A stretch of 64,000 nt of DNA, from positions 1-64,000 of the forward strand of contig JAHJAA010000091.1 of assembly GCA_018814305.1 (NCBI GenBank), given 5' to 3'. How positions within the stretch are numbered: the first letter of the stretch is position 1; each line of letters starts with the position of its first letter. Below are positions 41,462 through 61,535 of the stretch, in pieces. A program made the translations under genes and the position numbers. The notes beneath the pieces are model-generated. The model had not been told where the DNA came from, made no database searches, and worked only from the letters and a program-made list of their open reading frames with translations. The DNA is from Pseudomonadota bacterium (lineage in GTDB: Bacteria; Desulfobacterota; Desulfobulbia; Desulfobulbales; JAGXFP01).

Positions 41462-41472
41462 GGAGTGAAAAA

Positions 41473-41751: not shown

Positions 41752-41754
41752 TCA

Positions 41755-44051: not shown

Positions 44052-44054
44052 CCG

Positions 44055-44927: not shown

Positions 44928-44951
44928 ACTGATTTTGGAGTATCCATTTTT

Positions 44952-47210
44952 ATGGTCATGACTGACGCAGAAAAGAGAAATCAGGGCCGAAATCAGTTCG
45001 GTACCTTCGGGGGGGTATTCACCCCGGCTATCCTGACCATTCTCGGCGTCATTATGTTCATGCGCGCCAATTTTGTGGTTGGGGAGGCCGGGATCATCGG
45101 TGCCGTCGCCATCCTGGTGATCGCCAAGTCGATCACCCTGATGTCCTCGCTCTCCATTGCAGCGGTCAGCACCAATATCCAGGTCCGGGGAGGTGGCTCC
45201 TATTTTCTGATTTCCAGAGTCCTGGGTGTCGAATTCGGGGGGGCCATCGGTATTGCCCTGTTCTTTGCCCTCTCCCTCTCCGTTCCATTTTACATCCTGG
45301 GTTTTGCCGAGGCGTTGACCACCTCGTACCCCCAGATTACCCCATATTTTCTGATGATCTGCCTGGCCACCGCCACGGCGCTCTTCCTGATTGCCTATTA
45401 TGGCGCGGGGCTTGCTCTTAAGGCCCAGTTTGTGATTATGGCATTTTTGATGCTGGCTATAATCGCCTTTCTGGGCGGTGGGTTGCTGGATTTTTCCGTG
45501 GATCGGTTCGTCAATAATTTGTCTCCCGCTTATGGCCTTGATATTGGCCGTTCCGCAACCGGAGTTCGTTTCGGGTTCTGGATGGTCTTTGCCCTCTATT
45601 TTCCGGCGGTAACCGGGATTGACGCTGGGGTCAATATGAGCGGTGACTTGAAGGACCCCGGCGTCAGCATTCCCCGGGGAACTTTAGCGGCGGTCGCTGT
45701 CGGTTTTCTGGTCTATCTGGCTCAGATCATCATCTGTGGCGGGGCCTGGGATCGGGCCGATCTTATCCATAACCCCTTCGGGTTGCTCAAGGAAAACGCC
45801 CTGTTTGGCCTATCCTGGCTGGTGGTTTCCGGGGTGGTGGCCGCTACCCTTTCTTCGGCCCTGGGCAGTCTGTTGGGCGCCCCCCGGGTGCTCCAGGCGG
45901 TCTCTCGAGATCGGATTATGAAGTTTCTGATGTTTTATGCCAAGGGGGCCAAGAAGGGTGATGAGCCAAGGCGGGCGCTCATTCTGACCTACCTGATCAC
46001 CGTTCTGGTGTTGCTCTGGGCCGGTAATGCCAGCGGCGGTGGGGCTTTGAATGCTATTGCTGCCATCATCACCATGTTTTTCCTGTACAGTTACGGGATG
46101 ATCAATCTGGCGGCGTTCATCGAGGACTTCGGGGATAACCCCTCCTTCCGCCCCCGGTTCCGTTTTTATCACTGGTCATCGTCTCTCCTTGGTGCCCTGG
46201 CCTGCGTGGCGGTCTCGATCCTGATTAACTGGATCGCCTCCATCGCCGCAATTTGTATTATCATCATATTCTTTTGGCACATCAGGACCAGAAACCTTAC
46301 CGCAGCCTTTGGCGACGCCCGGCGGGGTTTTGTTTATAACGCCATTCGAAAGAACCTTCTCCGGCTCAGCCGAATGCCTGAGGACACCAGAAATTGGCGA
46401 CCGACCATGCTGGTCTTTTCCGGGATACCGGCCCTGCGCGAACCATTGGTGACCTATGCCATCTGGATTGCTGCCAAGCGGGGGCTCGTCTATCTGGCCG
46501 ATATTTTGGAGGGTGATTTTATGGAACTTGCCCCCCGTCGACCGGGGGCGCTCCGCCAACTGGAGAAGTTCTGTCAGGAAAAGGAGATTGAGGCCTTTCC
46601 TGCAGTGGTCACCGCCGATACCATCGAACATGGGGTTTCCATGCTGCTGCAGGCCACGGAAACCGGGCCGATTCATCCCAACGTTGCCATTTTTGGCTGG
46701 TCATCGGAGTACGACCATCTCTCCGCGTACCTTCGACAACTGCGCATTGCCGCCGTCCTTGAGATGAGCATCTTTCTCTTTTCGGTTCGGGGGTTGCCCA
46801 GGCCGGGCCTGCATAAACGGATCGATATATGGTGGCGTGGTCGGAAAAACGGCGAGATGATGCTCCTGGCCGCTCATCTGATGACGGAAAACTGGGAATG
46901 GGAGAACACCGAAATCAGATTGCTCCGGGTGGTGGAAAATGAGGAAGGTCAACTGCCCGCCAGCGATGCTCTGGCTGAGATCATCAAGCTTTCCAGGGTT
47001 AAGGCCTATCCTCAGGTTATCGTGAGTCAGGATCTTTTTGAAACTATTTTCCGAGAATACTCCGGAGAAGCGGATTGTATTTTTCTGGGTTATGAATTGC
47101 CGGAATCAGAAGATGAAAAGAAATGGCACGGATTCTATCAGAAACTCCTCTATAAGATGCCGACCACGATCTTGGTGAATTCGAAAATCAGTGAGCTTAT
47201 CGAAGCTTGA
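44952..47210 (+). CDS. SLC12-type cation-chloride cotransporter
   Basis: A 752-residue membrane protein of the cation-chloride cotransporter family in the APC superfamily. The opening FGTFGGVFTPAILTILGVIM and MFMRANFVVGEAGIIGA are family signatures, followed by 12 helices to about residue 450 and a large soluble C-terminal half with a USP-like nucleotide-binding look. In animals these move Na+/K+ with Cl-; bacterial homologues are poorly known. The gene is only 24 bases from atpG and shares its direction, so a link to Na+ or osmotic balance together with the N-ATPase is likely. It ends at a strong 14-bp hairpin. Confidence 0.88.
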   Translation: MVMTDAEKRNQGRNQFGTFGGVFTPAILTILGVIMFMRANFVVGEAGIIGAVAILVIAKSITLMSSLSIAAVSTNIQVRGGGSYFLISRVLGVEFGGAIGIALFFALSLSVPFYILGFAEALTTSYPQITPYFLMICLATATALFLIAYYGAGLALKAQFVIMAFLMLAIIAFLGGGLLDFSVDRFVNNLSPAYGLDIGRSATGVRFGFWMVFALYFPAVTGIDAGVNMSGDLKDPGVSIPRGTLAAVAVGFLVYLAQIIICGGAWDRADLIHNPFGLLKENALFGLSWLVVSGVVAATLSSALGSLLGAPRVLQAVSRDRIMKFLMFYAKGAKKGDEPRRALILTYLITVLVLLWAGNASGGGALNAIAAIITMFFLYSYGMINLAAFIEDFGDNPSFRPRFRFYHWSSSLLGALACVAVSILINWIASIAAICIIIIFFWHIRTRNLTAAFGDARRGFVYNAIRKNLLRLSRMPEDTRNWRPTMLVFSGIPALREPLVTYAIWIAAKRGLVYLADILEGDFMELAPRRPGALRQLEKFCQEKEIEAFPAVVTADTIEHGVSMLLQATETGPIHPNVAIFGWSSEYDHLSAYLRQLRIAAVLEMSIFLFSVRGLPRPGLHKRIDIWWRGRKNGEMMLLAAHLMTENWEWENTEIRLLRVVENEEGQLPASDALAEIIKLSRVKAYPQVIVSQDLFETIFREYSGEADCIFLGYELPESEDEKKWHGFYQKLLYKMPTTILVNSKISELIEA

Positions 47211-47282: not shown

Positions 47283-47759
47283 TTATGTTTTTTTCATGTT
47301 TTCAAGATATTCAAGAACCTTGCCTGGATGGTCAGCTGGTTTTGCAATTTTGGCCCAGTGCTTCAGGACCAGACCTTCTTGATCAATGAGTACTGTGGAT
47401 CGGATGACCCCCTGTACTGACTTGCCGTACATCTTTTTTTCACCAAAAGCCCCGTAGGCCTTCATGATCTCAGTGTCGGGATCAGAGAGCAGGATAAAGG
47501 GCAGGTCGTATTTTGTGATAAAATTATCATGGGAGGCCAGGGAGTCCCGGGAAATCCCAAACAGGGTGACATCATATTTGGTCAGTTCGGCATTCAAGTC
47601 CTTGAATGCGGTGGCTTCCTTTGTTCAGCCGGGGGTGTCATCTTTGGGATAAAAAAACAAAACCACAGTTTTTCCTCGATAGGAGGCGAGGGTATGTTCT
47701 TGGCCATCGCTCCCAGCGAGGCAGAATTCCGGGGCTTTTTTCCCTTCCAGTTTTGACAT
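47283..47759 (-). CDS. bcp: Selenocysteine-containing Bcp-type peroxiredoxin
   Basis: A 158-residue Bcp/PrxQ peroxiredoxin if the in-frame TGA at codon 45 (47627-47625) is read as selenocysteine. The frame starts at ATG 47759 (MSKLEGKKAPEF), preceded by AGGAG, and runs through FFYPKDDTPG-U-TKEATAF; the U replaces the peroxidatic Cys of the family's TPGC motif. Beyond it the family blocks VTLFGISRDSLASHDNF, LPFILLSDPDTEI and GVIRSTVLIDQEG continue without a break, so this is not a decayed gene. The residue five positions later, where many Bcp proteins have a resolving Cys, is Ala; only Cys13 remains, so reduction may involve an external thiol. It reduces peroxides using thioredoxin or glutathione-like partners. 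Confidence 0.93.
47590..47627 (-). promoter_or_regulatory. SECIS element with UGA-Sec codon
   Basis: The UGA codon is 47627-47625. After 15 bases the mRNA reads GCATTCAAGGACTTGAATGC (47609-47590), a perfect 8-bp stem with a GGAC loop. A stem-loop just after UGA with a G in the first loop positions is the bacterial SECIS consensus, recognised by SelB. The loop lies about 24 bases from UGA, in the accepted range. Confidence 0.85.
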
Positions 47760-48005: not shown

Positions 48006-49298
48006 TCACATCTGGGCTAACCGTTTATATAACTCTGTCTGGACACCATGCTGCCAATCTTCATATACTTTTTTTGATAACTCCGGAGATAACGGTAAGG
48101 CTTTAGCGTTGCTTTCCCTGAACAATTTCAGAATATCACCGGAATAATGTTCACACAACCATGAGGTGCCAGGTTTGGCAAAGACCTGTCGCATCGTGCC
48201 ATAGATTTCGGCAAAGTCGTCTGAGGCAATATTTCCAAAAGATATATTGAGGAATTCACAGGGCTGAACATCCCCTTTAGAATTAATATAGAAGCGATCT
48301 GTCCCACCGGCGGTGCAGCCAAAAACCGCTTTATCCTCTTCAATGATTTGGGCCGAAATTGCCGGGTAGTGACGATGGGACGGACTGTTATTATAGAGGT
48401 TTATCTTGGTCTTAACAAAATCCAGATCCTGATCGCTAAAGCGATCTGCACCACTTTCAAGCCAGCCTCCAGCCGGTTTTGGTTTTATCAGTTGGACAAT
48501 TACCGCGCCCAATTTTAAGGCATGTTCCATAACCTGCTCGAACCGACCGTTGCTGTAATCATTCTTCAAGAGGCAACTATTTAAGGCAACGGGCATATCT
48601 GCAGCATGACAGGAGGCAACACCTTTTGTCATAATATCCCAGGCATTTTCGTTACCCATAAAGATATTTAACTCTTCAGGTTCAGGACTGTGCAGGGAAA
48701 ACATGACAGCGTTTACCCCTAGTTTTTTCAGCTCTTTGAGTCGCTCGACCGATATTTGGTAACCGGTAGAGTTGATCCAAATCTCCGAGCGGTCGTCGAT
48801 CGCCATACAGAGTTTTTTTAATCGTTTATAGGCCATGAATGGTTCCCCTCCCTCAATGTTAAAGAAGGCAACTCCACGATCCTGTAGCCACCTGGCGACA
48901 TCAACAAGTTTATCAATATCGACATCGGCCCCGGCAAGTCGATCAAACTTTTGATAGCAGTGCTTGCACTTGAAGATGCAGCCGGCGGTGACTGACATCA
49001 ATACCGTGGTGCATGGCAATTTTTCGTTAAAGGTCATGAACTTCCGGCAGGAAGAATAAAAGGCACTTGACGGGAAACCGGGAACATAAAGATCAATCCG
49101 ACTTCGTCCCCCAATACAGACAAATTTGTTATGCTGCATGGCCTTCATAAAGAAAAGAAGTCGTCGAAGGAATCTATAGAAATGACTCAGGCTAATCTTT
49201 CCACGCAGTAGTTCCGGCAGAAAATATACAAAGACGGTTAGTTTAACCCGTATATTAAAAAGGACCTTGCCTAGCCCTCTGATGGTATGTATTTTCAT
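48006..49298 (-). CDS. Radical SAM/SPASM-like enzyme, last gene of the nine-gene operon
   Basis: A 430-residue radical SAM protein. The cluster ligands Cys107, Cys111 and Cys114 are in AGCIFKCKHCYQ, followed by FFNIEGGEPFM (SAM binding). After the barrel, FGCTAGGTDRFYINSKGDVQPCEFL and a later SWLCEHY hold further Cys that may bind an auxiliary cluster (SPASM-like). The first 90 residues are a basic, partly amphipathic extension. It starts four bases after the epimerase gene stop. It probably carries out a radical modification or carbon-carbon bond step in the product of the operon, but the reaction is unknown. Confidence 0.85.
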   Translation of the reverse strand: MKIHTIRGLGKVLFNIRVKLTVFVYFLPELLRGKISLSHFYRFLRRLLFFMKAMQHNKFVCIGGRSRIDLYVPGFPSSAFYSSCRKFMTFNEKLPCTTVLMSVTAGCIFKCKHCYQKFDRLAGADVDIDKLVDVARWLQDRGVAFFNIEGGEPFMAYKRLKKLCMAIDDRSEIWINSTGYQISVERLKELKKLGVNAVMFSLHSPEPEELNIFMGNENAWDIMTKGVASCHAADMPVALNSCLLKNDYSNGRFEQVMEHALKLGAVIVQLIKPKPAGGWLESGADRFSDQDLDFVKTKINLYNNSPSHRHYPAISAQIIEEDKAVFGCTAGGTDRFYINSKGDVQPCEFLNISFGNIASDDFAEIYGTMRQVFAKPGTSWLCEHYSGDILKLFRESNAKALPLSPELSKKVYEDWQHGVQTELYKRLAQM

Positions 49299-49302
49299 GG
49301 CC

Positions 49303-50337
49303 TCAGATTAATCCCTTTTCTTTATACCATTGCACAGTTCGACGTACCCCCTCTTCCAGGGAATAGCGGCTTGTAAAGTTAAGCAAACTTGATGCCTTTG
49401 ATGTTGAATATTTGATGTTATCATACATCATATTGAGACGCCCCCTGGTCAAAAGAGGAGCTGTCCCGCTATGGCAAATGCCATAGGCCAACTCTAGAAA
49501 GAAGGCGACGGGATAGAGCGGCCATTTAGGCATATGGCGAGGCCTGACAAATCCAGCCTCCCTACAAAAAAGTGTGTGGGTTGTCGCCATCAACTCGGAT
49601 TCTCTATTGCCGATGATTATTCGTTCCACCCCTGGAATTTTCTGTTGATAGGCCAGGAAGTATGCCCTGGCGAGATCTTTGGCATAAATGACATGGAACT
49701 TATTTGTCGCTGAGCCGGGGAGAAAGGGCACTTTACTCCGGGCTGTTTGCAGGTATTCATAGAAGCCACTATGAAACTCCCTCTCTCCATAGACCCAAAC
49801 CGGTTCCAGGATTGTGCAGTCCAGTCGCTGTTCCATTGCATATTGGCTGGCCTCTCTGACCGCTTCAGCTTTGGAATCGCGATAATAGTTCATCCCACAG
49901 GGGAAGAGATGGTCCAGAAAATAGGCATAATGGGACCGAAAGGGGGACGATTCATCTTTAATCCCGGAACAATCTTCCTCTCCATAGACGGAAATGGAAC
50001 CGGTGACGATTACCTGTTTAATTTTATTGAAGACGGATGCCTTGAGGACATTGAGAGTTCCCACCACATTTGTCTGAAAAAAATGTTCATATCTCCCCCA
50101 ATCCCGCACCAAACCGGCGGTGTGAATAATGGCTGAGCACTCTTTGGATGCCGCAACCATTTGCGCAAGATCGCAGATATCGCCATACCTCAATTCAATG
50201 GGCATGGACTCAAGAAAGGAAATATCACTACCCGGGCGGACGAGACAGACCGGCTGCAGATTCTGCTGACAAAAATACTCAACCACATGACTGCCAATGA
50301 AACCACTGGCGCCGGTTATCAGGATCTTATTATTCAT
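49303..50337 (-). CDS. NAD-dependent epimerase/dehydratase-family reductase
   Basis: A 344-residue extended SDR protein. ILITGASGFIGSHVVEYF is the nucleotide-binding GxxGxxG motif, with YxxxK in NYYRDSKAEAV. I place the start at MNNKILITG (50337), because this ATG overlaps the ketoacyl synthase stop by 8 bases; a longer frame adds 20 residues unlike the family. Members reduce a ketone or epimerise a sugar; the bacterial ceramide pathway uses a related reductase (CerR), which suggests reduction of a 3-keto intermediate here. Substrate is inference from context. Confidence 0.86.
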   Translation of the reverse strand: MNNKILITGASGFIGSHVVEYFCQQNLQPVCLVRPGSDISFLESMPIELRYGDICDLAQMVAASKECSAIIHTAGLVRDWGRYEHFFQTNVVGTLNVLKASVFNKIKQVIVTGSISVYGEEDCSGIKDESSPFRSHYAYFLDHLFPCGMNYYRDSKAEAVREASQYAMEQRLDCTILEPVWVYGEREFHSGFYEYLQTARSKVPFLPGSATNKFHVIYAKDLARAYFLAYQQKIPGVERIIIGNRESELMATTHTLFCREAGFVRPRHMPKWPLYPVAFFLELAYGICHSGTAPLLTRGRLNMMYDNIKYSTSKASSLLNFTSRYSLEEGVRRTVQWYKEKGLI

Positions 50338-51595
50338 AGCGTCGCATGAGTAAAGCGCCGTTATGGCCGCCAAAACCATAGGAGGTCGAGACGGCAAAGT
50401 CTATTGCAACCGCCTTTTTTCCCGTTGCCAGATTAAGATCGGCTATCGGATCTGGAATAAAATTGCCATGGACGATGCCGCTCTTGATGGATAAAGCGGT
50501 AACCGCTGCCTCCAGGGCCCCGGAGGCGCCGATGCTGTGCCCGAGAATCCCTTTACTGGCGTTGATGGTTGGTTGCCTGGAGTTGGGACCAAAGAGTTCC
50601 TGTAGTATCCGGGCTTCAATTGCATCATTAACGACCGTGGCCGTGCCGTGGCTGTTGAAGTAGTCTATCTTGCGATTGCCAATAAGCTTGGCTAAAAGTT
50701 GCCGGATCCATTGCCCCGATTGCTCTGGGAGGACGATGTGCCTCGCATCACAATTTGATTCATAGCCGACTATTTCAGCATAAATATCGGCACCACGGGC
50801 TAGAGCATGTTCGAGTTCTTCAAGCACCAGCAGACACCCCCCACCTTCAGAAAATAGGAAGCCGCTTCGTTTTTCTGAAAAAGGCATCGGCACCCCGTCT
50901 TCAGCACTTGTCAGGGTGGATAGCACATCAAAGCCCCGCATGATCGCGCCATGTTCTTCCTTCAGGGCCTCAACCCCACCTGCCAAAATAAGCGGACAGA
51001 GACCTTCTGCCACTTTTTGATATGCCTCGCCGATGGCGTAAGTACCGGAGGCGCAGGCGGCGTTAAGAGTATAGTCGGTTCCATGCATTCCAAAGAGAAT
51101 TGCCACCCACGCTGCCGCAGAATTGGGCATGACCATGGGGATAATCATGCGATCAAATTGACTCTTCTTCTGGTTTCGTGAGTCATCTGCTTGAATCCCA
51201 AGGTGGGCGAGGTAGGAAGAGTAGCTTGACTGCAAAGAACCAATACCAATGCCGATGATAACACCACTTTCTTCAAGTCCGGTCGTTCTCTCCGGCAAAT
51301 CGTCGGATAAAGCGGCTAGGCCGGCATCTTGCAATGCCAGATGGGCACACAGCACAGAAATTATTGCCGGATCTCCCATGAGCTTAATCAGGCGATGCGG
51401 GACCCCATACTCTGCAAGTGAAAACTCCGGCATGGGCACATAGTAACGAGATTTAAACCGATAATTTTTTTCGAAACGAGACGGAATGGGCTTGATACAG
51501 GTACGATTTTCCAACATCCCTTGCCAAAATGATTGTCTGCCGATGCCACTGGCTGTCACCGGACCAATCCCGCTTATAACCACGCGTCGTTTCAC
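50330..51595 (-). CDS. Beta-ketoacyl-ACP synthase (KAS I/II-like)
   Basis: A 421-residue thiolase-fold synthase that extends acyl-ACP with malonyl-ACP. The Cys-His-His triad is Cys181 (NAACASGT), His316 (NSHGTAT) and His353 (KGILGHSIGASG). A GTG start at 51595 overlaps the previous stop (GTGA) and has GGAG upstream, in line with the other 4-base overlaps of the operon; a TTG at 51610 is less likely. As a dedicated copy next to a dedicated ACP, it probably builds an acyl chain for the pathway rather than bulk fatty acid. Confidence 0.88.
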   Translation of the reverse strand: MKRRVVISGIGPVTASGIGRQSFWQGMLENRTCIKPIPSRFEKNYRFKSRYYVPMPEFSLAEYGVPHRLIKLMGDPAIISVLCAHLALQDAGLAALSDDLPERTTGLEESGVIIGIGIGSLQSSYSSYLAHLGIQADDSRNQKKSQFDRMIIPMVMPNSAAAWVAILFGMHGTDYTLNAACASGTYAIGEAYQKVAEGLCPLILAGGVEALKEEHGAIMRGFDVLSTLTSAEDGVPMPFSEKRSGFLFSEGGGCLLVLEELEHALARGADIYAEIVGYESNCDARHIVLPEQSGQWIRQLLAKLIGNRKIDYFNSHGTATVVNDAIEARILQELFGPNSRQPTINASKGILGHSIGASGALEAAVTALSIKSGIVHGNFIPDPIADLNLATGKKAVAIDFAVSTSYGFGGHNGALLMRRYE

Positions 51596-52602
51596 GATTT
51601 CTCCAGCCAATCTTTCAGGGCCTGAAGGTAGCCTTCGGCATCGACAAAGTCCCGCCCCCTTATGTTGAGACCTTTGAGATCAAATTCATGGTTACCTTGG
51701 CGTAATAGTCTGGTGTCGGCTTTGGCTACCATGCCAAGACGGTAGAAACATAATCCCTGTTGCTCTGCCGCCAGAAGGAATCGGTCTTCATCTTCTTCCT
51801 TGATGGTAAACAGCAGTTCGTACTCACCGGCTTCTCCGAGAAAGAGTAATGGGGCAGGGAGAGATAATAGTTTGGCTGCCCATAGACCGCTTTTAAGATA
51901 GGGGGGGGTCTCGATGAGGTAGCCACTGTTGTTTATCTCAGCCATGCAGTCGAGACTAACCCTCATCCCGTCGCTGGTATCGATACAGGAAGTGGCATAC
52001 TGCCGGAGCAGATTTGCCTCTAACAACCGCAACGGCAACCTGGTTTTGATTTTGGCGGTAATTTTGGCAACGACCTCTCTTCTCTTACTGAAGAGGTTCA
52101 GGGCGGCCTCGAGGTTGCCAAGACCTATGCGACCACTCAGATAGATAATGTCCCCTATACTTGCTCCACGTCGCAAAAGTGGGCGCCCCTCAGGAATCCC
52201 GATAACCGAGGCGGTGTAACGCCATGTTTCTGTTGAGCCGAAATCCCCCCCCATAAAACCTACTCCGGCCCGGACCAGGACATCGGCTACACCCTGGGCA
52301 AACTGTTCGATATAGTTGCTTGACCAGTCATGGGCCACGGTCATACTGTGTCCGTACCAAGTCGGCACTCCACCGGCGGCCAGTATATCGCTAATGGCGC
52401 CCACCGCACAGTTCCAGCCGAGACTATAGGGATCATGGTCACGAAAGAGATCTTCAGCAGAAAATTCATCTATGGTGAACAACAACTCTTTATCTGAAAC
52501 CTTGATTATTTCGGCATCACACTCAAATGCTCTATTGCCCCGCTGGTGCTCCGTAGGCATTATTGCGGTTATCTTCTTGATGAGCTCAACTTCTCTATTC
52601 AT
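51592..52602 (-). CDS. ThiL/AIR-synthase-like protein
   Basis: A 336-residue protein of the thiamine-monophosphate kinase/AIR-synthase superfamily. The N-terminal half has DEFSAEDLFRDHDPYSLGWN, AVGAISDILAAGGVPTWYG and GFMGGDFGSTETW, the Mg-ATP site pattern of ThiL; the C-terminal half has CIDTSDGMRVSLDCMAEINN and GEAGEYELLFTI. ThiL phosphorylates thiamine phosphate, but its place between a lipid-kinase-like and a ketoacyl synthase gene suggests another phosphorylation or an ATP-dependent amidation. Stop overlaps the next gene by GTGA. Confidence 0.8.
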   Translation of the reverse strand: MNREVELIKKITAIMPTEHQRGNRAFECDAEIIKVSDKELLFTIDEFSAEDLFRDHDPYSLGWNCAVGAISDILAAGGVPTWYGHSMTVAHDWSSNYIEQFAQGVADVLVRAGVGFMGGDFGSTETWRYTASVIGIPEGRPLLRRGASIGDIIYLSGRIGLGNLEAALNLFSKRREVVAKITAKIKTRLPLRLLEANLLRQYATSCIDTSDGMRVSLDCMAEINNSGYLIETPPYLKSGLWAAKLLSLPAPLLFLGEAGEYELLFTIKEEDEDRFLLAAEQQGLCFYRLGMVAKADTRLLRQGNHEFDLKGLNIRGRDFVDAEGYLQALKDWLEKS

Positions 52603-53564
52603 AAGACGACCAGATCTAACAGATCCTTAGCCGGCTCGATCCGACAAGGTAAATATCCGGCAGGATCACCATCAAACTCTACTTCGACACTATGTGGCCC
52701 ATCAATTTGCAAGACCTCAGCGTATTCAAAAGTAATACTCTGGCTACTTACAATCGGTTTGCCGCTGTAAATGGCTTTTAAAATCATGGGAAGTCGGTGC
52801 ATCTTAAGACTGTGTACTGCAAGGGAGTAGAAGCGAGGCTCGTCCGCTTTGAGGTCGTTATGAACTTTGATGCCGGATGCCAGCCAGGTTGTTCGTCCTA
52901 TGGAGATATTATGGACCTGATTCAGGTTTTTACAACAACCGTCCGTCTGCACAATGAGATCCACCGGCTGGTAGCAGGCAAGCGTTCGGAGAAGAGAGAA
53001 GAATGTTCCCGCTGAATCGCCTAAATATTTACGAATACCACCATTGGCATAACGGGCAAGAGTTGCGCCGAGGCCGATATTGGCGCAACATCCGAAGTAA
53101 GCCGTATGCTGATCCCTCTTTTCGGATATGGCCTTAGGCGAGGGCAATTGAGTCACCGGGGATTTTGCGTAGCTGATCCGCCCCACCCTGATGGAGACTC
53201 TTTTGTCGGCCGCAAGAATCTTTACGGCCGGCTCAATTTCGATGGGAATATTATAACTTTTGCAGAAATCCGGGCTGGTGCCGGTGTAAATGATTCCCAG
53301 TGCGGCGGCTGAGATCCTCCCGCCGGCCTGATTGAAAAAGCCATTCAGGACTCGATTGATGGTGCCGTCACCACCGATTGCCACCACGACATCATAGCCA
53401 TTACGATTGGCCATCGACGACAGATCCTCAGCTTCTTGCAGGCTGTTAATAATTTTGCATTCATATTCAAGATTATTTTGCCTGAACAATATGAAGATCC
53501 GCTCAAATTTCCCTTTGCTGACCCCATGCCTGGAACCGGGGTTGCAGATCAGAAAATATCTCAT
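52599..53564 (-). CDS. Diacylglycerol/sphingosine kinase-family protein
   Basis: A 321-residue DAGK/YegS/SphK-family protein. VVVAIGGDGTINRVLNGF carries the GGDGT ATP-binding motif and VEVEFDGDPAGYLPCRIEP the second conserved block. The family phosphorylates a lipid hydroxyl (diacylglycerol, sphingoid base or related). Being next to an alpha-oxoamine synthase, the long-chain base or its amino alcohol is a natural candidate substrate. Overlaps both neighbours by 4 bases. Confidence 0.86.
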   Translation of the reverse strand: MRYFLICNPGSRHGVSKGKFERIFILFRQNNLEYECKIINSLQEAEDLSSMANRNGYDVVVAIGGDGTINRVLNGFFNQAGGRISAAALGIIYTGTSPDFCKSYNIPIEIEPAVKILAADKRVSIRVGRISYAKSPVTQLPSPKAISEKRDQHTAYFGCCANIGLGATLARYANGGIRKYLGDSAGTFFSLLRTLACYQPVDLIVQTDGCCKNLNQVHNISIGRTTWLASGIKVHNDLKADEPRFYSLAVHSLKMHRLPMILKAIYSGKPIVSSQSITFEYAEVLQIDGPHSVEVEFDGDPAGYLPCRIEPAKDLLDLVVL

Positions 53565-54745
53565 CTTCTTTGCTCCCGGCGGATTTCCTGAAAGACAGCC
53601 AAGGCCTTGGCAATACTATCTTCTTCCAGGTTGGCTCCGGCAATCAAACGAACTACCCCTTGCTGAGGGGGAACGGAAGGTTCTATAAAGGGTGTTGAGA
53701 AGACCCCTTTCTTGTAGAGTTCTCCGGCCAGGCGCAAGGTATCTGCAGCACCGCCGGTGACGATTGAGGTTATTGGGGCTTGCCCTCCGGCCAATTGATA
53801 ACCGCATTGACTCAATCCTTCGGCTAATTTAGCCTTGTTCCGCCACATCTTATCCGCCAGGACCTCGAACTCGCCGGTTATAATATCGATCACCCGAGAA
53901 ATTCCGCCAAGGACCGCCGGGACCAAGGCTGTTGAGTAAACCAGATGGGGGCAGTAATAGCGTAAGTAATCCAGCAAATCCTTGCGACCAGCGATAATCC
54001 CGCCACTGTTCGCCAGGGATTTACCGAGTGAAGCGGTATAAATCCCTGGAAAATCGTCAATGCCCTGCTCCTCAAGAATACCCCTGCCAGACTTCCCCAA
54101 GACCCCTATGCCGTGTGAATCGTCAATAATTGCTATGGCGTTATATTTACGACAAAGGACAAGGATATCGCTTAGAGGGGCGATATTGCCCGTGGTGGAG
54201 AACACCGATTCGGTAACCACAAAGATTTGGCGGTAGGCATGCGAACGTTGAAGTATCTTTTCAAGGGCATTGAGATTGTTATGAAGGAACGGTCGAATTT
54301 TACAGCCTGCGGATTTGATCCCCTGAACAAGGGAAGAATGGGCGTAATGATCAACGACAACAAGGTCGTCCCGGTTGGCAATGGTGCTGAAGAGCCCGGT
54401 GTTTGCCTGAAAACAGGAGGGAAAAATGGCCGCCGCCTCCAGCCGGATGAATGCCGCTAATTTTTTTTCCAGAGAGCAAAGGAGATCGGCATAGCCGGAG
54501 GCGATCGGAGTGCCGCAGAGGGATGCCCCATAACGATTGACGGCGGCGATCATCGCCTCTTTGACCCGTGGGTCATCGGCAAGCCCCAGATAGTTGTTGG
54601 CGGCCAGGTTGATGCACTCCTTGCCGGCAACCTGAATGGGATCGGCAAGGGACGACTGGATTTGGAGGTAATAGGGATTAAAACCAAGGTCGGAGACCAG
54701 ACTGGTGTCCAAGTGGAGCCGATTGTAAAACTCTTCCCGGCTCAT
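53561..54745 (-). CDS. Alpha-oxoamine synthase (AONS/SPT family)
   Basis: A 394-residue PLP enzyme of the alpha-oxoamine synthase family, which joins an acyl thioester to an amino acid with loss of CO2. The PLP Lys is Lys242 (TASLGKSLANSGG), with DDSHGIGVLG (Asp208, His211) and the N-terminal NNYLGLADDPRV. The family includes KBL (glycine), BioF (alanine), HemA and serine palmitoyltransferase (SPT). Overlap with a dedicated ACP by 4 bases argues that an acyl-ACP is the acyl donor, as in bacterial SPT. The amino acid used cannot be told; SPT activity is the leading possibility. Confidence 0.88.
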   Translation of the reverse strand: MSREEFYNRLHLDTSLVSDLGFNPYYLQIQSSLADPIQVAGKECINLAANNYLGLADDPRVKEAMIAAVNRYGASLCGTPIASGYADLLCSLEKKLAAFIRLEAAAIFPSCFQANTGLFSTIANRDDLVVVDHYAHSSLVQGIKSAGCKIRPFLHNNLNALEKILQRSHAYRQIFVVTESVFSTTGNIAPLSDILVLCRKYNAIAIIDDSHGIGVLGKSGRGILEEQGIDDFPGIYTASLGKSLANSGGIIAGRKDLLDYLRYYCPHLVYSTALVPAVLGGISRVIDIITGEFEVLADKMWRNKAKLAEGLSQCGYQLAGGQAPITSIVTGGAADTLRLAGELYKKGVFSTPFIEPSVPPQQGVVRLIAGANLEEDSIAKALAVFQEIRREQRR

Positions 54746-54993
54746 TGCCGGCCTCCTTCTACCTCAGGAAAGTCTTTAATAAGTCTTTCCGAGATATCAG
54801 CGACCTTCTCCAGCCCACTGAAGTTGTTTTCATCGATAACAATGGAGAACTCTTCCTCTATATCATCTACTATCATCAACATCGTGAACGAATCTACCCC
54901 CAGATCGTCAATCAGTCGACTCTGACTTGTTATCTCGCATTTTATTTCCAAGTTGCGAGCAATGATCTCCCTGATTGTATTCTCCAAGGTCAT
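54742..54993 (-). CDS. Acyl carrier protein
   Basis: An 83-residue ACP with the phosphopantetheine-attachment serine at Ser35 in DLGVDSFTMLMIVDDIEEEF. The length and acidic profile are typical. It overlaps both the oxidoreductase (ATGA) and the alpha-oxoamine synthase, so it is likely the acyl donor for the condensation and the substrate of the ketoacyl synthase. It is a second ACP, distinct from the fatty acid synthesis copy expected elsewhere. Confidence 0.92.
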   Translation of the reverse strand: MTLENTIREIIARNLEIKCEITSQSRLIDDLGVDSFTMLMIVDDIEEEFSIVIDENNFSGLEKVADISERLIKDFPEVEGGRQ

Positions 54994-56198
54994 ATATTTC
55001 GTCCTTTGCCATAGCAGCGGGTAGGATATTTTGAGTCACACATTACTGCACATATATTGCAGTTACAGCAGCGAGAAACGTAGTCCGGATCATTTTTTAA
55101 CTCGGTCACAAAGCCAGGTTCACAGAGCAGCGGTCGACTAAGGGCAACAAAATCGGCCCGGCCTTTCTCAACAGCTAAGTGGATCTCCCTTCCCTGCCGA
55201 AATCCACCGACACTAATAATTGGGATATCCGTATAGCGTTTGGCAAATTGTGCGGAGTCAAGGTTGTAACAGGAGGTAAATGGTTTAACCCGGCGTCTCA
55301 ATATCGGTAAAACAAATACTTTCCAGCAATAGCGAAGCAGTCTGCTTTTTACTCTATAGAAGGGATTAAACTTGAGGATTTGTTCTATCGGGATATCGCC
55401 CCGGAAAATATTGAGCGCCTGGTCCATGGTGCCGTAACTAATCTCTATTCCAGCGACTTGTTTTCTATCCAGAAAACCAATGAGACGACTTAGCTGTTCA
55501 CGGCCAAATGGTTGCCGATTATCATCAGCAGCACTGATTTTGACCAGAACCGGAAAGTTTGGGCCACATCGCCGCCTGACCTCGTCAATGACAGCCTCGA
55601 AGAAGCTTGTGCCAATGCCGGTTTGAGAATCGATGCCATAACGGTCTGTTCGATCATTGACCGCCGGCAGAATGAATTGATGCAGAAGATAGCCATGGGC
55701 CGCATGAAGTTGTATGCCATCAAAACCGGCTTGTTGGGCAAAAAAAGCTGAATCGGCAAATCGAGTAATGACTCTTTCCGCCTGAGATGTACTCAATTTT
55801 TTGGGCTGCACCTTAAAATATGGTGATTTCTTGTGAGATACCCCTACGACCGCCCCTTCGACCGCCTCTTGGCTTGTCTGCCGACCAGTGTGGGCAAGTT
55901 GCATGAATATTTTGCTGCCGTAACGATGGACCGCTTCTGTGGTAACTTGAAAGGGACCCACCTTGTCGGTACCATCCATGCCGGCTTGACCGGGCTGCAT
56001 GGCTTTGCCATCAGCGGAAATATAGGTAAAGCCGGTGATAATAGCCCCGACGTTTTCTTTGGCAAGATTGCAATACAAATCGGTGTAAGCAACGGTTGGG
56101 CAACCGGAATCATCACACATCCCTTCAAAGGTGGCAGATCGAATGATCCTATTTTTGACAGTGACCACCCCTAACTTCGCTGACTCGAAAACAAGCAT
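54990..56198 (-). CDS. Old-yellow-enzyme-type flavin oxidoreductase with Cys-rich tail
   Basis: A 402-residue FMN-binding TIM-barrel enzyme (NADH:flavin oxidoreductase/OYE). VKNRIIRSATFEGMCDDSG opens the barrel, FDGIQLHAAHGYLLHQFILPAVN is the substrate-binding block and GGFRQGREIHL with FVALSRPLLCEPGFV bind phosphate. The last 26 residues carry six Cys (377, 378, 380, 383, 387, 395) in CCNCNICAVMC, like the [4Fe-4S] linker of dienoyl-CoA reductase but placed at the end. It may reduce an enone or enoyl intermediate. It precedes the ACP gene by an ATGA overlap. Confidence 0.86.
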   Translation of the reverse strand: MLVFESAKLGVVTVKNRIIRSATFEGMCDDSGCPTVAYTDLYCNLAKENVGAIITGFTYISADGKAMQPGQAGMDGTDKVGPFQVTTEAVHRYGSKIFMQLAHTGRQTSQEAVEGAVVGVSHKKSPYFKVQPKKLSTSQAERVITRFADSAFFAQQAGFDGIQLHAAHGYLLHQFILPAVNDRTDRYGIDSQTGIGTSFFEAVIDEVRRRCGPNFPVLVKISAADDNRQPFGREQLSRLIGFLDRKQVAGIEISYGTMDQALNIFRGDIPIEQILKFNPFYRVKSRLLRYCWKVFVLPILRRRVKPFTSCYNLDSAQFAKRYTDIPIISVGGFRQGREIHLAVEKGRADFVALSRPLLCEPGFVTELKNDPDYVSRCCNCNICAVMCDSKYPTRCYGKGRNI

Positions 56199-56209
56199 CT
56201 GTTTAACCG

Positions 56210-57208
56210 CTATGCCCGATGGTTGGTATGCAGATTAAAAAGAAAACCGATAAAGATATATGAAACCAAAAAAAGGAGCATCGCAAGTTCTGTATTGAAA
56301 AGGGCTATGAAGGTTGCCTGACCACAGGTACAGGCTCGAAAGTTCGTGGCAAGAGAGTCATATGTTGTCTTGCCTTGCGGATTTCGGTAGTAGAGAACAC
56401 CGGTCCATATTTGCAAGAAAAGAGTCAGGAAAGCCAGAATAACAAAGGTTTTATTTAGAGGGGCTACAATGAGCCCATTACTGTAGATCCCGATAAAGAG
56501 AAGCGATGGTAAAAATGAAGAGACAATGGCAATTTTTCTGGACCGTTCAATGCCGTACTTGACAATGATTGTCCGTTTTCCAGCGGCCATATCACCAGTA
56601 TAATCCTTGAAATAGGTATAAAATGTCATTAACCCATTCATAACCCAAATCAGAATTAAAACAGATACTCTACTTGAAGAGAAAAAGGGGGGGGCCGTCG
56701 GCCCAGCCGCCAGAAATCCAAAGATCGAGGACATGGTTATCATCAATCCGAAGATAATATTGCCCCAGATTCCGTAGCCCTTGGCATATTCATAAACCAC
56801 ATTAAGCAAAACACCTATGATCAGTGGAATAAGAGCAATTGGCTCAAGGTATTTCCAGGTGATTAGTCCAGTAACTGCCATCAAGAAAAAGGAAACCGTC
56901 AGAGCTCCTTGCGGATGTAATGCCCTCGTAACCATTGGTCGTTCTGGAGCGTTAATTTTATCCTCTTCAAGTCCGAGGTAGTCATTTATGATTTGGTTAA
57001 CACCCCAACTAAGAAAGAGGAGAACCAGTATTAACCCCTTTTTCTCGGTCGGCGGCAAAACTTCCACAGTCTGGAAGTTAGTGGCTATATGTTCATAAAA
57101 AGCGAGGCCAAGCCAACCGGCAATTCCTGTGATAAATGCATAGTAGAGCCGCATCGATTTAACATAGGCTCTTGAGAAGAGAAAAAGATACTCATAGGAA
57201 ATGGACAT
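56210..57208 (-). CDS. UbiA-family prenyltransferase, first gene of the operon
   Basis: A 332-residue polytopic membrane protein of the UbiA superfamily with seven to nine helices. Two Asp-rich motifs are seen: NDYLGLEEDKINAPERPM (first) and FKDYTGDMAAGKRT (second), which bind the Mg-prenyl diphosphate. These enzymes transfer a prenyl chain to an aromatic ring or a glycerol or lipid acceptor. It is the promoter-proximal gene of the nine-gene unit and would tether the pathway to the membrane. An acceptor made by the downstream enzymes is an attractive idea, not shown. Confidence 0.87.
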   Translation of the reverse strand: MSISYEYLFLFSRAYVKSMRLYYAFITGIAGWLGLAFYEHIATNFQTVEVLPPTEKKGLILVLLFLSWGVNQIINDYLGLEEDKINAPERPMVTRALHPQGALTVSFFLMAVTGLITWKYLEPIALIPLIIGVLLNVVYEYAKGYGIWGNIIFGLMITMSSIFGFLAAGPTAPPFFSSSRVSVLILIWVMNGLMTFYTYFKDYTGDMAAGKRTIIVKYGIERSRKIAIVSSFLPSLLFIGIYSNGLIVAPLNKTFVILAFLTLFLQIWTGVLYYRNPQGKTTYDSLATNFRACTCGQATFIALFNTELAMLLFLVSYIFIGFLFNLHTNHRA

Positions 57209-57649
57209 GATCTGCTTTGAATGCTCCTAGAAATGAGATGAGGGAAGATCTCCTTAGGCGGTCGTGTGAGAGTGGGTGATATTGACAAGCCCCTCAAGGA
57301 TTTCCCTATTAAAGTGTTCTGTCTGCTCTTGGCTTTTGCCTTGCAAGATTGACTTTCAGGTTTCTTTACAGCCAATTCAAATATCAGTGAACCACATCAC
57401 TTGATGTTGTACGTTTCCGGTCAGCAAGACAGCTTCAAAACGTATTGATTTTGTAATGTATCGACAGGTTCATTCCTGTCAATCGCTTTGTCCTGTTTGG
57501 CAAAATTATCGGGGGTAAAAATTGATTTAATGGTTGTAGTTAATCGTACTTGATCAACTTCTAACCCATGAGCGTCAGCCCTTTTTGGTTCGAGCGCAGT
57601 GTTTTATTAGTCGTTATTTGTAGACTGGATAACAATTATCTACTCCCAA
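57209..57649. other. Intergenic region upstream of the nine-gene operon
   Basis: About 440 bases between the chemoreceptor and the UbiA gene, both on the minus strand. It must hold the operon promoter, but I see no convincing -35/-10 pair. No hairpin with a T-run was noticed after the chemoreceptor stop either. No open frame here resembles a protein. Confidence 0.5.
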
Positions 57650-58975
57650 TTATTCCGAGATCATAATACCTTCGAGATTTTTAGAGAGCTTGACCATATC
57701 CCGGGTGATTTTTGCTGTTTGATTCAGGGCGGTCGAATTTTCTTCTACACCTACCATAATTTCGCGTATGGCAGCGGCAACTTGGTTGCTGGCGGTTTCC
57801 TGTTGCTGAGTCGCAGTTAATATCTGTCGACCGAGTTTCACGTTTGTCCTTGCTTCCTGGTATATTTCCCTCAACAACTCCTCCGCTACTTTCGAACTCG
57901 ATGCAACCTTTTTCATTTTCTCGGTACTTGAATCGGAAGAAATCACCAGCGATTGCACGGAGTCTTGAATTTCCCCAATTCTGTTTTCAATTTTCTCGGT
58001 GGATTCCATGACGCTATCGGCAAGAGAGCGGATTTTTTCCGCCACGACCCTGAACCTTTTCCCTGTTTCTCCTGCCATGGACGCCTCAATGGACGCATTG
58101 AACGAGATAAGTTTTGTCTGGTCGACGACGCTGTTGATGATTTTCATTATGTCGCCGATCTCTTCCGATTTATTTTTCAGTTCGATGATTCGATTCCGAT
58201 TCTCTTCGATATCCAAAAGCGTCACATTGATTTCGCCGACCAGGTGTCCTATGGAAACTGCTCCCTGGTCTGTTTTCGACAGACTGTCGCCTGCGGCCTG
58301 GGCGACTTTCCTTGAACTATGGGCGATCTGCTTGGATGATGCGGTCAGCTCTTCTACTGTGGCTGAGATCTCGGCAATCGAACTTACCTCTGTGCTCGCG
58401 ATAAACGATTGTTCTTCAACGGTAGACGAAATTTCCATTGAACTTAAATTTACTTTCTCGGTGGCCCCCGCGATTTCACTCAATAATTTCTGAAAGCTAT
58501 TGGCCATTACATTCAATGACGACCCGATGGCACCGAATTCATCATTGACATTATAGAGCTCACAAGTCTGGCAATCCTCACCTTTCATGGCCCTCGGGCA
58601 TTCGGGTTCTTTTTTCTGAGATCCAGCAACGACCCAGCAAATCGTTTTTTGCCCGTATGCGGGACAATCCCTTCGCCCGCATTTTTTTATCTTCGAGCAA
58701 TTGACTTTTTTGCCCATTTCAACCCTGTGGGAGATATTTTTGATTCCGATCTCCAGGGCAAATTTGTTCAATATGTCCAAAGGGTTGGTGATTTTAAATG
58801 TAATGAAAAAATATACGGGAATCGCGAAGACCAAAAGCATTGTGCATATAATGGCAAAAATGGTCTCGTTAGAACTGGACGTTCGGACAAACAACAGGTA
58901 AACCACCGAAGCGGTTATGATGGCGGGAAGCATGCTGCTGATCATCAGTTTTATTCGGATGGATAATGAAGCCAT
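57650..58975 (-). CDS. Methyl-accepting chemotaxis protein with Cys-rich insert
   Basis: A 441-residue chemoreceptor without a large periplasmic domain: two membrane helices (about 10-30 and 38-62), a HAMP-like region and, at residues 93-138, an insert with seven Cys (93, 99, 104, 113, 126, 135, 138) in the order CSKIKKCGRRDC, ICWVV, ECPRAMKGEDCQTC. The insert matches a pattern common in Deltaproteobacteria sensors (with CW and C-x2-C motifs) and may bind iron, zinc or heme. The signalling hairpin (about 260-330) contains IMKIINSVVDQTKLISFNAS. It would report an intracellular signal such as redox state to CheA. Confidence 0.9.
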   Translation of the reverse strand: MASLSIRIKLMISSMLPAIITASVVYLLFVRTSSSNETIFAIICTMLLVFAIPVYFFITFKITNPLDILNKFALEIGIKNISHRVEMGKKVNCSKIKKCGRRDCPAYGQKTICWVVAGSQKKEPECPRAMKGEDCQTCELYNVNDEFGAIGSSLNVMANSFQKLLSEIAGATEKVNLSSMEISSTVEEQSFIASTEVSSIAEISATVEELTASSKQIAHSSRKVAQAAGDSLSKTDQGAVSIGHLVGEINVTLLDIEENRNRIIELKNKSEEIGDIMKIINSVVDQTKLISFNASIEASMAGETGKRFRVVAEKIRSLADSVMESTEKIENRIGEIQDSVQSLVISSDSSTEKMKKVASSSKVAEELLREIYQEARTNVKLGRQILTATQQQETASNQVAAAIREIMVGVEENSTALNQTAKITRDMVKLSKNLEGIMISE

Positions 58976-59180: not shown

Positions 59181-61535
59181 TTATTGGGCATAGTAGTAAT
59201 AACGATTCAAGTCTAAAAGGCCACCCTGGACCGGTTCATCTTGATAGAGTCGCTGTTGGAACCAGTCGTAGGTGTCCCAGAATTTATCGTCCGCCCGATT
59301 GACTCCGTACTTGGCGAGTCGCTCCAGATCATGGGGGCTCTTGGTGAAATTGGCCAGAAGATCAAAAAAATCAGGAAGATCTTCCTCGCGGACATCAACA
59401 AAGTAGTTTGGATAGGAGCCAATAAGCCCGGGGATGAAATCAGCGCTGTCCAGGGCCGTATTGAATCGTCTTTTTTCTCCGAGCAGGAAAGCGACATTGT
59501 CATGCCAGCGATTCACCACAATTGACCCAGCTATATCCGCTCCATTTTTCAGGCGGATCCTCACAAAGGCGAGATTGGAATTGTGGTGATCCATCAGGGT
59601 AAAGAATTGGGTGCCTGGTTGGGAAAGAGCAGTGAAGGCCTGCTGATAATCAGCCTCTGATTGGTATTTTTCAGGCAGGGGAGGATAGACTCCTCCAGGT
59701 GGCAGATAGTTGATGGGATCAAAGGTAATCCCGGTGGTCGGCAGCAGATGGTGGTTGACAATGTACTCCACGAATTCTCGTTTCGGTTCATCGGTGACAA
59801 AGGATATCTTGGCCGGCATGATTGATGGATAATAGTTAATGTCTTTAAGCTTCATGCCCAGATACCACGATTGCATCAACTCAAGGCGATTTTCGGGAGG
59901 AAGGAAATCGAGAAATGAACTTTCTCCTTCGATGCGAAGTCTGTCCATATACAGGCGAAGAGACAGCTGATGCCCGGCCGTGCCGAACACGTCGAAGCCG
60001 GCAACCAGACCGTAATAAATTCGTTCGAACAACGGGTAATCCAAGACCCACAGGGACTTCGGCAGATTGCCCAGCACTCCCTTGTGAACTGAGGCGCTGT
60101 TAAAGTGGCGATAGACGGTGAGAATTGGTGCATCAGAGGGACGGTTGCCTTTCCAGATAAATTCGTAGTCAAGTCCGTTATAGTTGTGGGATGCATAAAA
60201 ATCCTGACGAGCCTGGTAAAATTCAATTGCCGTTTTTTTGTATTTATTGGTAAGCGCTGAAAATATGGGTTGGCCGCTTCCCTGCTCGATGGGCAGCCTC
60301 AGCATGTCATTGTATACCTTGAGAAAGCCAGGATATTTCACGCTGAGATCATGATCGGGGTCGAGGAACATGACCCAGAAGTTATCATTGATCACATTGA
60401 GGGCTACCTGTCCTTTGCAGACCGGGCCGTGGATAAAGGTCATGATGGTGTAGAGCGCGTTGTCCAGCAGAAACTGATACCGTGAGCGCGGTGGGATCTG
60501 CTCGAAAGCTGCAAACGGATTGGCGCTTAAGGTTGGGTCATAACCTATTCGGTGCGGAACCTGCAACCACTCCGGGCGGATGAAAAGTTCGTTGAATCGT
60601 TCCAGTTGGGCATCGTCAAGATTGAAGACCATATGGGTCTTATTGACGATGGTGGAGTGAATCTTGCGGAAACGATAGTAAAACCGGTCAGTTTTGGGGT
60701 CATCATAGGGGCGGACGGTGGGGATCAGCTCAATGGGGTGGCCGGGCGGGCTTTTTGAACGAACCAGTTCATAATATTCGTTGGTCGGCGTGCCGAATTT
60801 CAGATGGGCCAGAAAAAGATGCTCATAAAGATAGCGGGCCGTCATGGCGTGCTTGGCATCATCCTGATTGAGAAAAGCCTCCCATCGCTCAATGGCCTGA
60901 GCGTCACTTCCTTTCGGGGTGGTTAGCGCCGCCTGCTCCATGGCCGTGGGGCCTTTAGCTCCCTGCGCTAGCCAGCCGGCAATGATTCCGAATTCTTCTT
61001 GCTTAAGTGGTGGAAAGCCATAGGGCATGCCTCGGTTCGGGTGCTTTTCCAGGTACCCGGCCAGTTCATTCTGGTTTTCTGAGCAGCTCAGTTCATCAGT
61101 TTCGGGACTGTACTCTCCCAAACTTTTGGGATTGTTGATCTTATGCGACAGCAGTTGAATCATGATTGAATCATTCAAGCCGTTGGCAACAGTACTCTCG
61201 GTTACACTGAAGAAGCTCTTTCGGCGCCACTCTTCGGTTGATTGGGCATCGGTAAAAAGGCGGGTCGGGTCCATGGGTTTGAGGCGGGTGGCGCTGTAGA
61301 CCGCCTGCTTGGTGGCCCCACGATCCATACCCTCAAAGGAATCGAGTTTCAATTGACAGGGCGAATTGTAGCAGGAATGGCAGACCGTACAGCGCTTGTC
61401 GAGGATGGGTTTGACTTCCGCCAGATAATCAATGGCTCGGGTTGGAAGCGTTATTTGAACCGGTGGCAGCGGCTTGGCAGCACATCCTGCAAGGAAAGTC
61501 GCCATGAGCAAGGATAAAACGGTGGTATATTTCAT
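59181..61535 (-). CDS. cti: Fatty acid cis/trans isomerase (heme c type)
   Basis: A 784-residue Cti. It turns cis unsaturated fatty acids of membrane phospholipids into trans, making the membrane less fluid under solvent or heat stress. The N-terminus is a lipoprotein signal (lipobox ending LAGC, Cys18); a CxxCH heme c motif is Cys49-Cys52-His53 (RCTVCHS). Conserved blocks include LKPMDPTRLFTDAQS, RGMPYGFPPLKQEE and TRYLYEHLFLAHLKF. The ATG at 61535, with GGAG upstream, is preferred over an earlier GTG. It acts in the periplasm and needs heme, unusual for a strictly anaerobic profile. Confidence 0.93.
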   Translation of the reverse strand: MKYTTVLSLLMATFLAGCAAKPLPPVQITLPTRAIDYLAEVKPILDKRCTVCHSCYNSPCQLKLDSFEGMDRGATKQAVYSATRLKPMDPTRLFTDAQSTEEWRRKSFFSVTESTVANGLNDSIMIQLLSHKINNPKSLGEYSPETDELSCSENQNELAGYLEKHPNRGMPYGFPPLKQEEFGIIAGWLAQGAKGPTAMEQAALTTPKGSDAQAIERWEAFLNQDDAKHAMTARYLYEHLFLAHLKFGTPTNEYYELVRSKSPPGHPIELIPTVRPYDDPKTDRFYYRFRKIHSTIVNKTHMVFNLDDAQLERFNELFIRPEWLQVPHRIGYDPTLSANPFAAFEQIPPRSRYQFLLDNALYTIMTFIHGPVCKGQVALNVINDNFWVMFLDPDHDLSVKYPGFLKVYNDMLRLPIEQGSGQPIFSALTNKYKKTAIEFYQARQDFYASHNYNGLDYEFIWKGNRPSDAPILTVYRHFNSASVHKGVLGNLPKSLWVLDYPLFERIYYGLVAGFDVFGTAGHQLSLRLYMDRLRIEGESSFLDFLPPENRLELMQSWYLGMKLKDINYYPSIMPAKISFVTDEPKREFVEYIVNHHLLPTTGITFDPINYLPPGGVYPPLPEKYQSEADYQQAFTALSQPGTQFFTLMDHHNSNLAFVRIRLKNGADIAGSIVVNRWHDNVAFLLGEKRRFNTALDSADFIPGLIGSYPNYFVDVREEDLPDFFDLLANFTKSPHDLERLAKYGVNRADDKFWDTYDWFQQRLYQDEPVQGGLLDLNRYYYYAQ

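Follow-up and report, generated by a model that had tools for sequence, protein, structure and literature searches.

A conserved nine-gene operon in a Desulfobulbales genome and a proposed amino-lipid pathway

The 64,000-nucleotide stretch analysed here (contig JAHJAA010000091.1 of assembly GCA_018814305.1, from a Desulfobulbales bacterium; hereafter the window) carries on its minus strand, from 57208 to 48006, nine tightly packed genes that almost certainly form one pathway. From the 5' end, they encode a UbiA-superfamily transferase (UbiA), an Old Yellow Enzyme-type flavin oxidoreductase (OYE), an acyl carrier protein (ACP), an alpha-oxoamine synthase (AONS), a lipid kinase of the DAGK/YegS/sphingosine-kinase family (DAGK), a ThiL-like kinase, a beta-ketoacyl-ACP synthase (KAS), an extended short-chain dehydrogenase/reductase (SDR) and a radical SAM protein (rSAM). 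We propose, with a probability of roughly 0.4, that the operon is a dedicated pathway for an unusual amino-lipid, in which the AONS would catalyse the entry step, followed by reduction by the SDR, double phosphorylation by the two kinases, UbiA-mediated joining to an isoprenoid and tailoring by the OYE and the rSAM.

Organization and conservation of the nine-gene operon

Each of the nine proteins scores above the Pfam cut-off of its family, and the position, strand and order of the open reading frames, together with their families, are as claimed by the first-pass annotation, which had been made from the letters of the window:

56210..57208, minus strand: UbiA-superfamily membrane transferase, first gene, 332 residues; PF01040, 85.8 bits (cut-off 34.2)
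54990..56198, minus strand: OYE-type flavin oxidoreductase; PF00724 (Oxidored_FMN), 165.7 bits
54742..54993, minus strand: dedicated ACP, 83 residues, with a conserved D-S; PF00550 (PP-binding), 36.1 bits
53561..54745, minus strand: AONS of a separate clade, with the pyridoxal 5'-phosphate (PLP) lysine K242; Aminotran_1_2, 147.2 bits
52599..53564, minus strand: lipid kinase of the DAGK/YegS/sphingosine-kinase family; PF00781 (DAGK_cat), 70.1 bits, and PF19279, 31.3 bits
51592..52602, minus strand: ThiL-like kinase, a dedicated paralogue; AIRS, 53.4 bits; thiL model, 128.8-129.3 bits
50330..51595, minus strand: FabF-like KAS with a GTG start; PF00109 (ketoacyl-synt, 119.5 bits) and PF02801
49303..50337, minus strand: extended SDR, a reductase like HpnA, OleD and 3beta-HSD; PF01370 (Epimerase), 102.5 bits
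48006..49298, minus strand: rSAM with a partial SPASM-type region, last gene; PF04055, 70.8 bits, and PF13186, 27.7 bits

Recomputation of the junctions gives +11, -4, -4, -4, -4, -4, -8 and +4 bases, every one exactly as first described. Specifically, an 11-base gap separates UbiA and OYE, overlaps of 4 bases join OYE/ACP, ACP/AONS, AONS/DAGK, DAGK/ThiL-like and ThiL-like/KAS, KAS and SDR overlap by 8 bases, and a 4-base gap lies between SDR and rSAM. The most likely starts of KAS and SDR, with which the homologues agree, are GTG at 51595 and ATG at 50337, respectively.

The operon is not a chance assembly, because two other genomes carry the full set of nine in one uninterrupted run, and two more carry runs of eight and seven. 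In the two Bacteroidota genomes with the complete set (L059 and L060), the genes lie on one strand each in the order ThiL-KAS-SDR-rSAM-UbiA-OYE-ACP-AONS-DAGK. A Bacteroidetes metagenome-assembled genome (MAG; L037) has eight contiguous genes, ThiL-KAS-SDR-rSAM-UbiA-ACP-AONS-DAGK, and lacks the OYE. Within the window's own order, a 7.9-kb contig of a Desulfobulbaceae MAG (L035, the same record as L038) carries seven contiguous genes, UbiA-OYE-ACP-AONS-DAGK-ThiL-KAS, arranged as in the window, and ends inside the KAS; the C-terminal half of an rSAM stands at the end of a second contig of that genome (L051). The window order thus permutes two blocks that the clusters share, [UbiA-OYE-ACP-AONS-DAGK] and [ThiL-KAS-SDR-rSAM], which would be expected of genes serving one pathway. 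ACP, AONS and DAGK are adjacent in every cluster (ACP-AONS in 6/6 loci), and KAS always accompanies ACP and AONS where the sequence lets this be seen. Identities to the window proteins are 57-65% for UbiA, 51-57% for rSAM, 50-57% for AONS, 49-53% for SDR, 48-54% for OYE, 46-51% for both KAS and DAGK, 42-47% for the ThiL-like protein and 31-50% for ACP. Taken together, the preservation of nine genes in two phyla at 31-65% identity shows that the set is selected as a unit, so that an undescribed metabolite probably exists. The first-pass annotation had spoken of one functional pathway and had named absence of the cluster from other genomes as the outcome that would count against it; no such absence was found, and the retention of the set across phyla in rearranged, shared blocks strongly supports its view.

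A sixth locus, in another Bacteroidetes MAG (L036), is a short contig with OYE-ACP-AONS-DAGK and may reflect truncation of the cluster or incompleteness of the MAG. An ankyrin-like gene (3464-4060) follows the cluster there, and searches of that genome gave no UbiA and no rSAM. In L060, an extra gene with no Pfam match and an outer-membrane-protein-like appearance lies between KAS and SDR, and the flanks of this cluster, read by eye, hold peptidase/ABC transporter-like and HlyD-like genes (1074-4807 and 12045-13088).

The set is rare and patchy in distribution. In the sampled Bacteroidota order, the cluster-type rSAM occurs in 3/247 genomes and the UbiA in 3/198; these are the same three genomes, all of them cluster carriers, a coincidence that further supports a single pathway. 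Among 394 sampled genomes of the window's phylum, no AONS exceeded 36% identity; among 257 other members of the window's order, a single one carries both an AONS (51%) and a DAGK (46%). In one class sample (n=395) and one family sample (n=108), the AONS was found in the seed genome only, and a plasmid collection contained only distant AONS proteins (≤35% identity). L036 and L037 were added by a scan of GTDB genomes with two peptide patterns, and L059 and L060 by searches around these two; the patterns are narrow, so that the cluster occurs in at least six genomes. Gene transfer between phyla is likely, because the AONS is nearer to Bacteroidota proteins, grouping with them to the exclusion of the AONS of its own order (95% support in the SH-like approximate likelihood ratio test, SH-aLRT), the spread is patchy, and the GC content of the operon is lower than that of the remainder of the window (48.2% versus 52.2%). 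In line with this, GC at third codon positions is below that of most neighbours checked. No published description of the nine-gene set was found in a search that reached little of the subscription literature.

Active-site residues of the encoded enzymes

Catalytic motifs are intact in KAS, SDR, OYE, ACP and rSAM, and residues are altered in AONS, UbiA and the ThiL-like protein. The window AONS shares 50-57% identity with its cluster homologues and at most 36% with anything else found, and it lies under every NCBIfam cut-off: the three serine palmitoyltransferase (SPT) models give 258, 234 and 184 bits (cut-offs 640, 500 and 670), the KBL model 293 (460) and the BioF model 287 (426). A tree was built from the cluster AONS, 33 further AONS proteins and references for KBL, SPT, BioF and ALAS. 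In it, the six cluster AONS form one group (100% SH-aLRT) on a long stem, which lies outside KBL, outside BioF/ALAS and outside the branch of S. multivorum SPT and SPT-like matches; the tree was built by a quick method, with few references, long branches and an unsure root position. The enzyme thus belongs to none of the SPT, KBL and BioF clades, and the BioF or KBL placement that the first-pass annotation had said would speak against a new pathway did not appear; on model scores and tree, a BioF or KBL identity is rejected. The PLP lysine (K242), a stacking-type histidine (H136) and a C-terminal arginine (R366) are conserved in the cluster AONS, and a substrate-side loop reads C-x-T-P in 6/6 of them. 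Here T-P replaces a conserved arginine that is present in KBL, SPT, BioF, ALAS and all other compared proteins except L041, which has histidine. Because the PLP, stacking and C-terminal residues are conserved and the loop is altered, the cluster AONS is probably active but prefers a different amino acid or acyl substrate. The single other AONS match in the window's genome is BioF-like (423 bits for the part that matched, 3 bits short of the cut-off).

The UbiA enzyme shows an alteration that the first-pass annotation had not seen. Its nearest solved relative is the digeranylgeranylglyceryl phosphate (DGGGP) synthase of M. jannaschii (MjDGGGPS; 42.8 bits). Upon alignment to MjDGGGPS and realignment, in which residue numbers were counted, N62, D70, D183 and D187 of that enzyme are kept as N75, D83, D202 and D206, whereas D66 corresponds to Gly79 and D180 to Tyr199 in 5/5 cluster UbiA proteins. 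The cluster proteins therefore lack two of the five aspartates that serve catalysis in DGGGP synthase, and Asp motifs 1 and 3 are incomplete; the D183 position is itself not universal, being Ser in a chlorophyll synthase aligned alongside. Alanine mutants of MjDGGGPS at D66, D70, D180, D183 and D187 have strongly reduced activity, and mutation of motifs 1 and 3 weakens binding of geranylgeranyl diphosphate (GGPP) less than that of the phosphate-bearing acceptor (PMC9385802). The cluster UbiA presumably treats its phosphate ligand in another way or acts on a different one.

The two kinases also depart from their closest models. The DAGK retains GGDGT and has GTSPDF in place of GTxNDF; its nearest solved structure is DgkB. 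The ThiL-like protein is a paralogue of ThiL, scoring 129 bits with the thiL model (cut-off 184.15), 50 with SelD and 32 with HypE. It is not a thiamine gene, because the true ThiL (297.2 bits) is encoded at another locus of the genome, and a role as the genome's thiamine-phosphate kinase was rejected on this ground and on its score; a further ThiL-model match (C86) is HypE. Acidic motifs of the ATP/Mg type are retained: six acidic positions aligned with ThiL (D29, D45, D72, D120, D208 and D211) are invariant in five homologues, and three segments differ: G-x-H-F is replaced by E-D-x-F, L-G-D-A-A-A-G by G-x-G-N-x-E-A, and G-G-[ED]-D by E-C-G-E (E-A-G-E in the window). The protein is most likely still a phosphotransferase, with another substrate.

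In the OYE, the motif HAAHGYL (H-x-x-H-x-Y) is invariant and aligns with YqjM-like enzymes, a stretch of approximately 45 residues (about 264-309) is unaligned in solved OYEs, and the C-terminus bears five conserved cysteines, C-x2-C-N-x-C-x3-C-x7-C. This spacing differs from that of the iron-sulfur motif of 2,4-dienoyl-CoA reductase, and the cysteines possibly form an unusual metal cluster. The ACP is conserved beside the AONS in all homologous clusters. The KAS triad (C181, H316, H353) is invariant in four homologues; the protein lies under the fabF cut-off (281 versus 494 bits) and weakly matches the PigJ model. The SDR has intact TGS and YxxxK motifs and reaches 125.4 bits with the NCBIfam HpnA model (cut-off 367.65). 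In the rSAM, CxxxCxxC is invariant, PF13186 exceeds its cut-off of 21.5 bits, and the C-terminal part holds only three further conserved cysteines. An AlphaFold2 model of it from two sequences (mean pLDDT 49.5) was too poor for a fold search; two predicted N-terminal helices (7-31 and 37-55) within a hydrophobic stretch would fit contact with the membrane.

Proposed pathway and alternatives

In the amino-lipid pathway that we propose, an acyl chain would be carried on the dedicated ACP, possibly after lengthening by the KAS, and the AONS would couple it to an amino acid, giving an alpha-aminoketone by condensation; an acyl-ACP is likewise used by SPT in Rhodobacteria (PMC9386255). Reduction of this ketone by the extended SDR, a step that CerR performs on the bacterial route to ceramide, would yield an amino alcohol, and the DAGK-family kinase would phosphorylate a hydroxyl, for which ceramide kinase CC_1160 (PMC11324152) and dihydrosphingosine kinase PG1348 (PMC9045371) are precedents. 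ThiL converts a phosphomonoester, thiamine monophosphate, into a diphosphate by in-line transfer (PMC6416309), and the ThiL-like kinase could add a second phosphate in the same manner. ThiL chemistry and a DAGK-family kinase in one set thus suggest a possible relay in which a hydroxyl becomes first a phosphate and then a diphosphate, a kind of group that UbiA enzymes handle; diphosphate and phospho-lipid substrates are known for these enzymes (PMC9385802). The resulting lipid would serve as donor or acceptor for the UbiA enzyme, whose aspartate site may be rearranged for a non-standard partner, and would be joined to an isoprenoid; the OYE would reduce a double bond and the rSAM would make a further change. 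The prenylated or phosphorylated acyl-amino-ketone lipid that was first suggested remains a conjecture. Substrates, product and the sequence of steps are all inferred; what is observed is the gene set, its contiguity, its conservation in two phyla and the residues above.

Several points weigh against this pathway. The AONS lies outside the SPT clade, so that serine is only a candidate substrate, and without two of its aspartates the UbiA enzyme could have lost its chemistry or acquired another. The OYE step is not universal: no counterpart of the cluster-type OYE was found in the whole genome G638, so the step is dispensable or replaced there. G637, whose cluster contig is short and begins inside the OYE, yielded neither UbiA nor rSAM. 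Additionally, the set includes no N-acyltransferase, acyl-ACP synthetase or phosphatase.

A ring-forming route would use the same central enzymes, with the AONS turning a beta-ketoacyl-ACP from the KAS into an amino-diketone that closes to a hydroxypyrrole, which the UbiA enzyme would prenylate to yield an antibiotic or a redox lipid that resembles quinones; the model would be the PigH chemistry of the bipyrrole half of prodigiosin. The constant company of KAS, ACP and AONS, the intact KAS triad and the weak PigJ match fit this route, and rings are frequent targets of UbiA enzymes (PMC9385802). The two lipid-type kinases and the extended SDR, however, have no clear place in it, and DGGGP synthase, the closest UbiA of solved structure, acts on lipids. 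We regard a prenylated pyrrole-like product as unlikely. The kinase pair might instead work on the isoprenoid side, converting a prenol into its phosphate and diphosphate for UbiA in the manner of the plant phytol kinase pair, while the AONS and SDR make the acceptor. Two kinases of the right chemistry do share a gene set with UbiA, and stepwise prenol activation by GGK and GGPK has been described (PMC9385802). The DAGK, however, always lies beside the AONS and not beside UbiA, and DAGK_cat proteins are generally known for acylglycerol and sphingoid substrates. To our knowledge, the known prenol kinases belong to other families, and we consider this arrangement quite improbable.

A modified version of the canonical bacterial route to sphingolipids or sulfonolipids, with N-acylation genes elsewhere and the extra genes altering head group or chain, appears slightly less probable again. 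AONS, ACP, extended SDR and lipid kinase do parallel Spt, AcpR, CerR and CpgB (PMC11324152), but the AONS lies outside the SPT-containing branch and under all three SPT cut-offs, the substrate-loop arginine is lost, no cluster holds bCerS or AasR, and the only other AONS match of the window's genome is BioF-like. An ordinary biotin or threonine locus is already contradicted and virtually excluded: the best solved relative of the window AONS is E. coli KBL (281 bits), but the scores of the window AONS fall far under the KBL and BioF cut-offs, it forms a clade of its own, 0/9 genes are of biotin or threonine type, and a distinct BioF-like gene is present in the genome.

The amino-lipid pathway thus remains our preferred reading. 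In a bolder and rather doubtful form of it, the two kinases would carry the AONS-derived amino lipid to a diphosphate, and UbiA, with a re-built diphosphate site, would join it to an isoprenoid, giving a new class of sphingoid-isoprenoid hybrids spread horizontally between Desulfobacterota-type and Bacteroidota bacteria. If true, this would join two otherwise separate lipid worlds and show a way of activating amino lipids as diphosphates. Orphan amino lipids occur in anoxic waters and sediments (e.g. PMC11334938); were the hybrid real, the nine-gene set with the AONS loop CxTP and the UbiA motif NDYLGxxED might serve as a genetic marker for them.

Genomic surroundings and comparison with known systems

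Upstream of the operon lies a chemotaxis receptor gene (57650-58975). Promoter and terminator scans around the operon gave site numbers near chance level, and an Rfam search of the window gave no match. Among promoter-like sites ahead of the first gene, the best one is weak:

57455..57482, minus strand: TTGACA-16-TACATT, 10/12 matches

Directly downstream, a peroxiredoxin gene (47283-47759, minus strand; AhpC-TSA, 129 bits) has an in-frame TGA at residue 45 (PKDDTPG-U-TKEA), which stands where a cysteine is expected, and its product is a probable selenocysteine protein. A fatty acid cis/trans isomerase gene (CTI, 846 bits; 59181-61550, minus strand) is a second membrane-lipid gene near the operon. 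On the plus strand, 38135-47210 holds an N-type ATPase-like operon followed by an SLC12-like cation-chloride transporter, as judged by eye.

The operon is not the canonical sphingolipid route. The parallel drawn by the first-pass annotation stands in outline, in that AONS, ACP, extended SDR and lipid kinase are all present; it gives way at the AONS, which is no member of the SPT clade, and at the absence of a ceramide synthase or acyl-ACP synthetase from the set. Specifically, the operon resembles the Caulobacter ceramide pathway (Spt, AcpR, AasR, CerR, bCerS) with CpgB in setting an AONS beside an ACP, a reductase and a lipid kinase (PMC11324152, PMC9386255), whereas it adds UbiA, OYE, the ThiL-like protein, KAS and rSAM. 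bCerS and AasR are absent from the nine genes, and neither is conserved in the flanks read in L037, L059 and L060. For the CerR-type reductase, the extended SDR with its intact YxxxK is a candidate. SgaAB(C) of Pseudomonas fluorescens MYb115 likewise combines chain building by a ketosynthase with an AONS and a ketone-reducing SDR (PMC12134224). That system, however, uses a type I iterative polyketide synthase and an SPT-active AONS, whereas the operon has a single FabF-like KAS, a free ACP, an AONS of another clade and five further enzymes.

Individual enzymes show the same mixture of likeness and difference. The UbiA protein shares with its nearest solved relative, the DGGGP synthase of archaeal ether-lipid synthesis, the equivalents of N62, D70, D183 and D187, but has Gly and Tyr for D66 and D180, and the operon contains no geranylgeranylglyceryl phosphate (GGGP) synthase gene. 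The ThiL-like paralogue shares with ThiL the fold family, an N-terminal Asp, the motif-2 Asp, SD(I/V), GGD and DxSDG, but lacks the GxHF substrate loop and scores under the curated cut-off. Finally, in the 4-methoxy-2,2'-bipyrrole-5-carbaldehyde (MBC) branch of prodiginine synthesis, PigJ and PigH follow the same logic of ketosynthase, ACP and AONS, whereas the operon distributes these functions over separate small proteins and combines them with kinases, UbiA and rSAM.

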